From Maritalea mediterranea (GTDB taxonomy: Bacteria; Pseudomonadota; Alphaproteobacteria; Rhizobiales; Devosiaceae), in assembly GCF_021568695.1 (NCBI RefSeq), contig NZ_JAKGTI010000001.1:620001-684000 (forward strand): a stretch of 64,000 nt of DNA. Reading direction: 5' to 3'. Below, one piece after another: positions 33,863 to 37,401 of the stretch. The notes beneath the pieces were generated by a model. That model was not told the origin of the DNA. It was given only the letters and a program-made list of their open reading frames with translations, and ran no database searches. Every line of letters starts with the position of its first letter. Positions within the stretch are counted from its first letter, which is position 1. The position numbers and the translations under genes are program-made.

Positions 33863-34471
33863 ATGTCCTCACGCTCTGGCGGGCCAGAGATTGATCAGCT
33901 TATCCAATTATTGGCGCGGTTGCCGGGGCTTGGGCCCCGGTCTGCCCGTCGTGCGGTGTTGCACCTGATTAAGAAAAAGGAAACGCTGATGGTGCCGCTA
34001 TCGGCGGCGCTAGACCGGGCTGTAGACAGCGTGATGACCTGCGCCAATTGCGGCAATGTGGACACTATGTCCCCCTGCCATATCTGCACAGACCCGAAGC
34101 GCACCGCCTCCGGCCTGTTGATCATTGTTGAAGATGTTGCCGACCTCTGGGCGCTGGAACGGGCCGGCATCGGCGCCGCGCTTTATCATGTGCTGGGCGG
34201 CACCTTGTCGCCTCTCGACGGCATCGGGCCGGACGATCTCAACATCCAAAGCCTGGTGCAACGCGTGGAAGCTGGCAATATTACTGAAATCGTGCTGGCG
34301 GTGAACGCCACCGTCGATGGCCAAACCACCGCCCACTATATCACCGACCAACTGCAACCCTTCGGTGTTAAAATTTCCCGCCTGGCCCATGGCGTGCCCG
34401 TGGGCGGCGAGCTGGATTATTTGGACGAGGGCACCCTGGCCCAGGCGCTCAAGGCGCGGACCCTCTTTTAG
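33863..34471 (+). CDS. recR: Recombination mediator protein RecR
   Basis: Works with RecF and RecO to load RecA on gapped DNA. Of 202 residues, the order is the helix-hairpin-helix ('[19 protein letters not shown]'), the four-cysteine zinc finger ('CANCGNVD' and 'CHICTD'), and the Toprim domain ('[14 protein letters not shown]', '[18 protein letters not shown]'), ending in '[19 protein letters not shown]'. All elements look intact. It is the last gene of the ffs-dnaX-ybaB-recR group. Confidence 0.95.
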
Positions 34472-34577
34472 TCACGGTTACAAACCCGGCGTCGGGCTGG
34501 AACCCCCTCGACATAATCTAGGCATCAACGCGTCCCACCGCGCAGCCGCAGCGGATTCGCACCGTTGCGACGGTCAC

Positions 34578-34675
34578 CTATCAATCTGTAAAATTTGCCT
34601 TTGCAAAATGCGCAATAATACCCCCAAGATTGATAGATTATTGCCGTTTTTACTGACGCATTCCTTCTGTACAAT
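34578..34675 (+). promoter_or_regulatory. Promoter/operator region of ornithine cyclodeaminase with interleaved inverted repeats
   Basis: Two perfect inverted repeats interleave: CTATCAATCT (34578-34587) with AGATTGATAG (34627-34636), and GCAATAAT (34612-34619) with ATTATTGC (34637-34644). A TTTGCAAA palindrome sits between at 34600-34607. A good -10, TACAAT, is at 34670-34675, which would start the transcript about 34 bases before the gene. On that reading the repeats are upstream regulator sites rather than a leader RNA. Confidence 0.45.
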
Positions 34676-34716
34676 CTAATCTTCTTAATTCCGCTATGAT
34701 TTATGAGGGATATTCA

Positions 34717-35790
34717 ATGGCCAAGTTTCACCGCGATACGCTTAATCTGGTGCCATTTGTCAGCGTCGATAATATGATGAAATTGATCTTGCATATCGGC
34801 GTGGAGGAAACCATGGCCGGCATTGCTAAGGCCATCGAGGAAGATTTTGTGCGCTGGGAACTTTTCGACAAAACCCCACGCGTCGCTTCCCATTCCAATG
34901 AAGGTGTGATTGAGCTGATGCCCACCAGCGATGGTGAGGTTTATGGCTTTAAATATGTAAATGGCCACCCCAAAAACACAAAAGAGGGCATGCAGACCGT
35001 TACGGCGTTCGGCCTGCTGGCCGATGTGGCCAACGGCTATCCGGTGCTCCTGTCTGAAATGACGATCCTCACCGCCTTGCGCACCGCTGCCATGTCCGCC
35101 GTGGCCGCCAAATATCTGGCGCCCAAAAATGCAAAAACCATGGCCATCATCGGCAATGGCGCCCAGTGCGAATTCCAGGCTTTGGCTTTCCGCAAAATTT
35201 GCGGCATCGAAAATATCCGCCTTTATGATACAGACCCGAAAGCCACCGAAAAGGCCATGTTCAACCTGCAAAACAGTGGGCTTAACCTCACTTCTTGCAG
35301 CACCGGCGAAGATTGTGTGGCGGGGGCCGAAATCATCACCACCTGCACGGCGGATAAGCAATATGCCACCATACTTACCGATAATATGGTGGGGTCAGGC
35401 ATTCACATCAACGCCATTGGCGGCGATTGCCCGGGCAAGACCGAGCTGCATAAAGGTATTTTGCACCGCTCGGAAATTTTCACCGAGTTTACCCCGCAAA
35501 CCCGTATTGAGGGCGAAATTCAGCAATTGCCGGACGACTATGAAGTCACCGAGCTGTGGGAAGTGATGTCAGGTCAAAAAGAAGGCCGCAAAGCCGAAGG
35601 GCAAATCACCCTGTTTGACAGTGTCGGCTTCGCCGTCGAAGATTTCTCTGCCCTGCGCTTTATCTATCAGGCCATCCAGGGCACTCAATTCTATGAAGAT
35701 TTGGACATGTTGGCCGACCCAGACGATCCGCGCGATCTCTATGGCATGGTGCAACGCGCCGCCAAGCAAAATATGACTGCCGCAGAATAG
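34717..35790 (+). CDS. Ornithine cyclodeaminase
   Basis: NAD-dependent enzyme that turns ornithine into proline and ammonia, 357 residues. It shows the ornithine cyclodeaminase/mu-crystallin fold: 'DKTPRVASHSNEGVIELMP', the Rossmann motif 'MAIIGNGAQCEFQALAF' with 'LYDTDPKATEKAM', and 'GIHINAIGGDCPGKTEL', which contains the catalytic Asp region of OCD. The long N-terminus and the 'CTADKQ' segment are those of true OCDs rather than lysine or alanine relatives. The ATG at 34717 has GAGGGA six bases before. It stands alone, closed by a strong terminator, and may be controlled by arginine or ornithine. Confidence 0.9.
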   Translation: MAKFHRDTLNLVPFVSVDNMMKLILHIGVEETMAGIAKAIEEDFVRWELFDKTPRVASHSNEGVIELMPTSDGEVYGFKYVNGHPKNTKEGMQTVTAFGLLADVANGYPVLLSEMTILTALRTAAMSAVAAKYLAPKNAKTMAIIGNGAQCEFQALAFRKICGIENIRLYDTDPKATEKAMFNLQNSGLNLTSCSTGEDCVAGAEIITTCTADKQYATILTDNMVGSGIHINAIGGDCPGKTELHKGILHRSEIFTEFTPQTRIEGEIQQLPDDYEVTELWEVMSGQKEGRKAEGQITLFDSVGFAVEDFSALRFIYQAIQGTQFYEDLDMLADPDDPRDLYGMVQRAAKQNMTAAE

Positions 35791-35838: not shown

Positions 35839-36249
35839 TTAGTCGCTCTTGGTCCGCCAAGGGTCCAGCGCCGCCATGTAGCGCCCAATTGCATAGCGCC
35901 ACGGGATGATAAACACAAATGGCACCACAAAGGCGCAGGCAAACAGGACCTCTATGGTCGCTTCGTCCATGGTGCCCGTTTGCCAGCGGGGCAGGGCCAC
36001 AAACAGCACCCAGATCAGTTTCCAACTGAGTTCAAACCACAGCAGCGGCAGCATAAAGATCGGCGCGAACAGCCCGAGAATGGAAAGCACAGCCAAAGCG
36101 CTCAGCATGGCGGTAACAACGCCATCCATCATCGGCATGGTCACCACAGGGCCAAACAGGTCAGGCACGATCTGTATCGACAGGCCAACCAGCAACAACA
36201 AATAACATCCGCGCAATAAATAAAGGCGCAACAGCGAAACGGGCTTCAA
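35839..36249 (-). CDS. Uncharacterised four-helix membrane protein
   Basis: I do not recognise this 136-residue protein. It has four hydrophobic segments, at about residues 12-32, 42-62, 64-86 and 100-122, with Trp and Leu abundant and a basic Arg-rich end ('WRYAIGRYMAALDPWRTKSD'). There is no signal peptide or cysteine motif. It lies divergently from an AraC-type regulator gene 129 bases away, so the two may share control and the regulator may govern it. Confidence 0.7.
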   Translation of the reverse strand: MKPVSLLRLYLLRGCYLLLLVGLSIQIVPDLFGPVVTMPMMDGVVTAMLSALAVLSILGLFAPIFMLPLLWFELSWKLIWVLFVALPRWQTGTMDEATIEVLFACAFVVPFVFIIPWRYAIGRYMAALDPWRTKSD

Positions 36250-36378
36250 TTTTTTGTCCTTCTTGCAATTTGCAGTCAGAATAGTGATCTAGTGAACATA
36301 GATTTGTAGCCGGATATAAGATTAAGTCCATGATCTTAGGTTGCTTGAAACTTGATCCTTTGTAACAGGAGAAAAATA

Positions 36379-37401
36379 TTGGCCCTCTCCACCGTGTCCG
36401 CCGGTTTAGCCGCAGGCTTGTTGGCCTATGCATTGTCGCGCGGGGCAGATGCGGAGGATTTGCAGGCCAAGTCCAGCCTCGGCGATCATGATCTGACTGA
36501 CCCGGACGCGCGGGTGCCACTGCACACATATCTTGCCCTTTTGCATCAGGCGCAAGAGGGAACGAACGATCCGGCCCTCGCGCTGCATTGGGGCGAAGAT
36601 GTGGACATGGCGGAGCTTTCAATCGTCGGCCTGATCATGAATGCCGCCTCCACGAAGGGCGTTGCGTTTCAGCAATTGCAGCGCTATGGGCGGCTGGCCA
36701 TGGAGATCAATGATCCAGCGGGCAGCCCACATTTTGAACTGACCCAGCAGGACGGGCGCCTCTACATGGTTTATCGGGCGGCTCCCGCACAAAATGTACC
36801 GGAACTGGTGGAAAATGCCTTTGCGCGGCTGACGTGCGGGCCACGCCAATTTCTTGATTCACCCCATATCCTGTCGGTGGACTTCACACATCCGGCCCCG
36901 TCTTACAGGGATGAATATGCCCGCATATTCCAGTGCCCCGTACATTTTGAAGCTAAGTGGAACGCAATGGAGCTGCACCCGGAGGTCGCCGCTTGGCCCG
37001 TTGCGCAAAGCCCAGCCTATATGTCCAAATTGCTGGCCGAACGGGCCGACCAGCTTTTGGCAAAGTTAACGACACAAAAAAGCGTGCGCGGCCAAGTGGA
37101 GCAGGCGCTTCTGCCGCTTTTACATTTGGGCAATCCGGGGGCAGACCAAATCGCCGCCCAGTTGGGCATGAGTCGTCAAACGCTCTTTCGTCGCTTGAAA
37201 GAGGAGAACGCATCCTATCGCGACGTGCTGGAAGAGCTGCGCCACACCATGGCCATGTCGCATTTGAAAAGCCAAAAGCTCAGCGTGGGTGATATCGCCT
37301 ATCTGCTTGGGTTCTCAGATGTAGCGGCCTTCTCCCGTGCCTTCAAGCGCTGGACGGGCCAAAGCCCCCGGGCGTTCCGTCAAAGCTCTGAGATGGTGTA
37401 G
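36379..37401 (+). CDS. AraC-family transcriptional regulator
   Basis: DNA-binding regulator, 340 residues. The first 190 residues form the 'arabinose-binding domain of AraC transcription regulator' type found in OruR/ArgR-like proteins ('VSAGLAAGLLAYALSRGAD', 'PLHTYLALLHQAQEG'). The C-terminal 100 residues hold the two helix-turn-helix units: 'ADQIAAQLGMSRQTLFRRLKEE' (split) and 'SVGDIAYLLGFSDVAAFSRAFKRWTG'-type sequence. A TTG at 36379 is taken as the start because AGGAG lies seven bases upstream; the frame is open to 36352. The target is unknown; the divergent membrane-protein gene is the first candidate. Confidence 0.9.
   Translation: MALSTVSAGLAAGLLAYALSRGADAEDLQAKSSLGDHDLTDPDARVPLHTYLALLHQAQEGTNDPALALHWGEDVDMAELSIVGLIMNAASTKGVAFQQLQRYGRLAMEINDPAGSPHFELTQQDGRLYMVYRAAPAQNVPELVENAFARLTCGPRQFLDSPHILSVDFTHPAPSYRDEYARIFQCPVHFEAKWNAMELHPEVAAWPVAQSPAYMSKLLAERADQLLAKLTTQKSVRGQVEQALLPLLHLGNPGADQIAAQLGMSRQTLFRRLKEENASYRDVLEELRHTMAMSHLKSQKLSVGDIAYLLGFSDVAAFSRAFKRWTGQSPRAFRQSSEMV

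Follow-up and report, generated by a model that had tools for sequence, protein, structure and literature searches.

The region between recR and ocd, the gene for ornithine cyclodeaminase, probably holds an Lrp/AsnC-family operator belonging to the ocd promoter. The predicted operator spans positions 34578-34655 of the window, the whole 64,000-nucleotide stretch of DNA that was analysed. Operators of the Lrp/AsnC type are a known kind of element; less usual at this locus is the apparent loss of the regulator gene next to it. The features discussed here are as follows, with paired motif scores referring to models trained on 75 and 65 upstream regions, respectively.

33863-34471, + strand: presumably recR, named from its sequence and neighbours; directly upstream of ocd
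34578-34592: predicted Lrp-type operator site 1, CTATCAATCTGTAAA, including arm A of an inverted repeat; scores 8.95 and 8.98
34600-34614: predicted Lrp-type operator site 2, TTTGCAAAATGCGCA, including the palindrome TTTGCAAA; scores 11.35 and 10.9
34612-34619: arm B of a second inverted repeat, GCAATAAT, complement of 34637-34644
34627-34636: arm A', AGATTGATAG, with a TTGATA word; the 15-mer 34622-34636 has a motif score of 0.36
34641-34655: conserved block T[TC]GCC[AG]TTTT and predicted weak third site, TTGCCGTTTTTACTG, overlapping arm B' and the -35 position; scores 1.54 and 0.8
34670-34675, + strand: predicted -10 of the ocd promoter, TACAAT, with TATGAT/TACAAT at the same place in Maritalea myrionectae and M. 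mobilis
34705-34709, + strand: ribosome-binding sequence GAGGG, 7 nt before ATG 34717
34717-35790, + strand: ocd, ornithine cyclodeaminase, 357 aa from ATG 34717 (NF005762, 565.5 bits against a cut-off of 350; PF02423)

The nearest species are M. myrionectae (97%) and M. mobilis (96%), which places the window in Maritalea. The ocd reading frame is also open from ATG 34696, and ATG 34717 is the most likely start because the GAGGG block seven bases before it is invariant in the three-species alignment. The TACAAT box of the original prediction is present at 34670-34675, and transcription would start from it at approximately 34682. Given a 17-bp spacer, the -35 is TTTTTA at 34647-34652, a poor hexamer that is overlapped by the predicted third site. 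The combination of a plausible -10 and a poor -35 fits an activated promoter. The poor -35 also explains why the box at 34670 was missed by a scan for consensus promoters, whose sole match was at 34565-34594 (9/12; shuffle mean 0.5), a result that counts against the operator reading. No terminator-like site was detected by a scan of 34440-34760.

The operator motif was learned independently of the window. A palindromic model with one site per sequence and a first-order background was trained on 75 ocd upstream regions, from which the window was excluded; these remained after dropping the duplicates L002 and L003 (of L031 and L032), upstream regions of <200 nt, and Lrp matches weaker than 1e-20. 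This model replaced a first motif search, which had led to AT-richness. The resulting consensus is T.atCAAaTTGat.A, and the likelihood gains of the model were 107-150, compared with 22-35 for a shuffled control at the same widths. For retraining, 10 regions of Maritalea and Cohaesibacter were removed, leaving 65 sequences; L100, in which ocd also adjoins an Lrp gene, was kept in this set and is not among the 10 relatives.

With the 75-sequence motif, sites 1 and 2 are the two best matches between recR and ocd, and the score of site 2 (11.35) can be compared with a median best match of 10.15 in the training regions. The best single site of the region had a block-shuffle P of 0.006 (2000 shuffles). 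The two sites are 22 bp apart. Across the 75 regions, relative to 40 shuffled sets, second sites show a strong preference for distances of 21, 22, and 30 bp (z of 9.6, 5.5, and 8.6); the other offsets were the overlapping 9 and 13 (z of 4.7 and 5.1) and, more weakly, 44 (3.1) and 41 (2.1). None of 5000 block shuffles matched the pair and no other such pair occurs in the 64 kb, with the 75-set and the 65-set motifs alike. Semi-palindromic sites of 13-15 bp are expected of an Lrp/AsnC operator, as are several sites in helical phase; 34578-34592 and 34600-34614 are of the former kind, and their 22-bp step provides the latter. The step of 41 bp to the third site is only weakly preferred (z of 2.1) and that site is weak in the window, both of which count against the operator.

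Sites at corresponding places in relatives, a further expectation for an operator of this family, were also found. The T[TC]GCC[AG]TTTT block is present in all 10 Maritalea and Cohaesibacter upstream regions examined, reading TCGCC in two of them. When the regions were anchored on this block, their mean motif profile peaked at 0, -62, and -40, and the window has its sites at 0 (weak), -63, and -41 relative to 34641. The score reached at least 5 at -62 in 7 of the 10 relatives and at -40 in 4 of the 10. Against the operator, the sites of the window lie one base off the commonest offsets of the relatives. The two nearest sisters have their strongest sites at -54 and -32, and score 4.9 and 2.0 at -63 and 1.5 and 4.5 at -41, compared with 9.0 and 10.9 in the window. 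The sites may have moved by turnover rather than being kept base for base. The left part shows modest homology to the sisters: 63 and 35 of 1000 shuffles equalled the alignment of 34560-34624, and 14 and 9 of 2000 did as well for 34545-34623, a start that was picked after the first result. A 96% match of 34612-34634 in another Maritalea genome was taken as chance; by eye, its surroundings look protein-coding.

The survey of ocd loci covered the best 80 of 264. A related Lrp/AsnC gene lies upstream of ocd in 66 of the 80, in all 66 on the opposite strand and in nine adjacent to ocd; in the other 57, the DNA between Lrp and ocd begins with what looks like arginase. A linked Lrp was not found in nine loci whose available upstream DNA reaches 2.2 kb or more, nor in five with less, so the window is not alone in missing its linked regulator. 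In M. myrionectae, recR is followed by a weakly SnoaL_2-like ORF (22.5 bits, below the cut-off of 27), then by an Lrp/AsnC gene on the opposite strand, and then by ocd. In M. mobilis, a transporter-like ORF (presumably LysE) encoded on the opposite strand comes after recR, with an Lrp/AsnC gene and ocd next. The window has ocd directly after recR and no regulator gene at the locus; an adjacent cognate regulator, which is usual for an Lrp/AsnC operator and not required, is therefore absent here. The sister ocd-linked Lrp has the DNA-binding and ligand domains of Lrp/AsnC above the Pfam cut-offs, and passed no NCBIfam cut-off.

When the ocd-linked Lrp of M. myrionectae was used as query against six Maritalea genomes, its matches were 100% in its own genome, 97% in M. 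mobilis, and 65-67% in three others, and the best match in the genome of the window was a paralog of 43% linked to arginase. The ocd-linked regulator adjoins ocd in four of the five other Maritalea genomes and also at six Cohaesibacter loci. In the fifth (83% complete) the regulator stops 168 bases short of the edge of a contig, and a close ocd was not detected. The regulator is thus present in all five other Maritalea genomes, and loss in the lineage of the window, rather than ancestral absence, would be the simplest account by parsimony. In a tree of 79 Lrp proteins the ocd-linked proteins of Maritalea do not group together in a single clade, so it is identity and gene neighbourhood that speak for their common descent. 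The contig of the window is 1.87 Mb long and spans the recR-ocd place, and the genome is 98.75% complete, which leaves a small chance that the regulator gene has been displaced to another place. A search of 34472-34625 for remnants of the lost genes gave none that was clear (scores of 20-23; shuffles had a mean of 21.4 and a maximum of 32). On present sequence data, the ocd operator appears to be orphaned, with its neighbouring regulator gone.

Several further differences in gene content were observed around ocd. The recR-ocd interval (34472-34577 in the window) is a place of gene turnover: the SnoaL-like ORF, the transporter-like ORF, and lrp are absent from the window, and no match to the SnoaL-like ORF of M. 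myrionectae was found in M. mobilis or in two further Maritalea genomes. Downstream, M. mobilis has a 421-aa transporter-like gene, which we take to be SulP, between ocd and the gene of a small membrane protein. The counterpart of the latter in the window (35839-36249, matched by eye) directly follows ocd, so the window is also shorter downstream of ocd than M. mobilis. In another Maritalea genome, the gene after ocd encodes the citrulline utilization hydrolase CtlX (NF046062, above the cut-off). An AraC-type regulator with an Arabinose_bd domain is encoded at 36352-37401, its nearest NCBIfam model being QhpR (191 bits, below the cut-off of 250).

We propose that dimers of a regulator of the multimeric Lrp type would bind 34578-34592 and 34600-34614, two 15-bp semi-palindromic sites two helical turns (22 bp) apart, cooperatively on one face of the DNA. 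A weak third binding would follow 41 bp further on, at 34641-34655, over the -35. Binding would activate ocd, with its poor -35, at times of arginine or ornithine catabolism. The divergent ocd regulator would have been lost with its operator left behind, and the surviving arginase-linked sister Lrp would now be the likeliest binder.

This paralog is divergent to arginase in the genome of the window, and its counterparts (41-43%) lie beside arginase in four other Maritalea genomes. The five arginase-linked Lrps form one supported branch in the tree of 79 Lrp proteins. All five of the Maritalea arginase-Lrp intergenic regions scanned carry two sites of the ocd motif 22 bp apart, matched by none of 1000 shuffles of each; the scan covered five of the six genomes, the arginase match of the sixth being cut at a contig end. 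The arginase-linked paralog thus seems the likeliest present-day user of the ocd operator. The paralog and the lost regulator are unlike in the recognition-helix region, so their specificity may differ too, which counts against a simple swap. By eye, site 2 of ocd is closer to the arginase site of its own genome than the sisters' ocd sites are (11 compared with approximately 9 of 15), a likeness too weak to claim. Arginase in the genome of the window is flanked on both sides by two different Lrp/AsnC genes.

A more specific scenario, which we regard as plausible though a little short of probable, is a regulon merger: the ocd-specific Lrp would have been deleted, and the operator retained and sharpened at -63/-41 through capture by the arginase-linked Lrp. 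If this is true, one regulator would stand over both steps from arginine via ornithine to proline, and the locus would be a snapshot of the take-over of an orphaned operator by a paralog.

Alternatively, the sites may simply have outlasted their regulator, so that nothing binds and ocd is constitutive or otherwise controlled, for example by the AraC-type regulator of 36352-37401. We consider this rather unlikely; like the main explanation it takes the sites to be an Lrp-type operator, so the likelihoods attached to the two overlap. Consistent with it are that the genome encodes nothing closely matching the cognate regulator, that the third site is weak, and that the DNA of 34625-34760, which includes the ocd start, is just 73-76% identical to that of the sisters. 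Against it, decay would not predict that sites 1 and 2 outscore the same positions in the two sisters, and the genome does have a sister Lrp whose own control region carries the motif.

It is clearly more doubtful that accidental repeats and motif matches in AT-rich intergenic DNA account for the whole arrangement. The region was chosen post hoc, and the motif is degenerate as well as AT-rich. Single matches are common: with the 75-set motif, scores of at least 9 occur at 38 of 63986 window positions and five exceed site 2, which counts against the operator as far as single sites go. The case therefore rests on the pair, its spacing, and the anchor. A pair with the spacing of the family was seen neither in the 5000 shuffles nor elsewhere in the 64 kb, using a motif trained independently, and it lies no more than one base from the offsets of the relatives to the conserved block. 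These results argue against chance and for the predicted Lrp/AsnC operator. The DNA-operator side of the original prediction, which was favoured there because of TACAAT, is thereby supported to the extent that the independently learned Lrp/AsnC-type motif falls on arm A and on TTTGCAAA, in a layout near that of the relatives.

The inverted repeats that first drew attention to the region are real. The arms of A (34578-34587 and 34627-34636) are complementary at 10 of 10 positions and those of B (34612-34619 and 34637-34644) at 8 of 8. On rechecking the coordinates, the order A-B-A'-B', the contact of A' and B' at 34636/34637, and the palindrome between the arms, at 34600-34607, were all as originally described. 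A/A' and B/B' are the only perfect inverted repeats of at least 7 bp with loops of 3-80 in 34472-34716. A repeat of at least 10 bp with a loop of at most 60 occurred in 4 of 500 dinucleotide shuffles of this interval and the interleaved 10+8 layout in 0 of 500; the test was framed post hoc on one of many intergenic regions scanned in the window, so the layout by itself is no more than moderately surprising. Relatives do not share the interleaved layout; the binding sites within it do have counterparts there. A and A' each bear a TATCAA/TTGATA word, which resembles half of the Lrp-type motif. The complementarity of B is probably due to chance; B by itself is an ordinary 8-bp repeat. The arms named in the original prediction therefore exist, but they are probably not the functional units, and B lacks independent support.

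That A/A' and B/B' form an H-type pseudoknot in a leader RNA sensing arginine or ornithine, as had also been suggested, is hardly credible: the pairing is not kept in nine relatives, 34400-34900 has no Rfam match up to an E of 5, and the -10-like block common to two sisters begins 25 nt past B', which puts it downstream of the entire element. In favour of a leader, the interleaved arms do exist and are complementary, and read-through from recR would be possible given the lack of a terminator-like site in 34440-34760. The promoter-like site at 34565-34594 (9/12) could also serve such a leader, though its start would fall past arm A, so that the A/A' pair would not be transcribed from there. The pairing check covered nine of the 10 relatives, positioned by the conserved block (L035 was omitted as close to L034). 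The arms were fully complementary in none, A forming 2-8 of 10 pairs and B 1-5 of 8 with G-U counted. Perfect repeats whose 3' arm falls at the same place reached 8 bp at most, at two Cohaesibacter loci, which speaks for the leader. The fold of 34570-34720 is unremarkable (z of -1.30), with 22 of 200 shuffles folding equally well or better. A classical H-type pseudoknot has one or more nucleotides between the arms that correspond to A' and B', and here there are none. Of the covarying pairs and conserved half-sites that were to be compared in relatives, the pairs are thus not kept and the motif sites have counterparts. Nothing suggests that RNA structure matters at this locus.

Read as a predicted Lrp/AsnC operator, an odd repeat becomes a testable regulatory element, and a motif and geometry can be predicted for the arginase- and ocd-linked Lrp regulators of Alphaproteobacteria. 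The genus also offers a natural experiment on the fate of a promoter after the loss of its regulator while a paralog remains, with five Maritalea genomes that have the ocd-linked regulator and one that does not.

A search of titles and the beginnings of abstracts, with few subscription journals covered, yielded no operator for an ocd-linked Lrp in Alphaproteobacteria. The closest systems are the divergent Lrp/AsnC control regions at the arginase/ocd loci of Alphaproteobacteria (66 of 80), with which we group the ArgR-argI1 system of S. meliloti, reportedly described by Ide et al. in 2020. The window resembles these Alphaproteobacteria loci in the motif, the 21-22 bp spacing, and the location upstream of a gene of ornithine/arginine catabolism; it differs in having no adjacent regulator gene and in the position of ocd directly after recR.

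Sites of Lrp are semi-palindromic, clustered, and two or three helical turns apart, according to one review (PMC2995911). Clustered imperfect palindromes are likewise present in the window, where they are known from sequence and the third site is weak. The periodicities quoted for the Lrp family in the available part of another source are 7-8, 18, and 30-31 bp, not 22 (PMC8707732), which counts against the spacing in the window. The AsnC-family regulator AstR of Acinetobacter baumannii binds upstream of and activates the ornithine catabolic operon astNOP, and in one assay given in the part of the article available, the addition of arginine or ornithine made no dramatic change (PMC12478604); arginine and ornithine are accordingly no more than candidate effectors of the ocd regulator. 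As far as the same excerpt goes, the two systems share an AsnC-family regulator, which is predicted in our case, and an ornithine catabolic gene downstream, and astNOP represents another pathway in another lineage, with the regulator gene adjacent.
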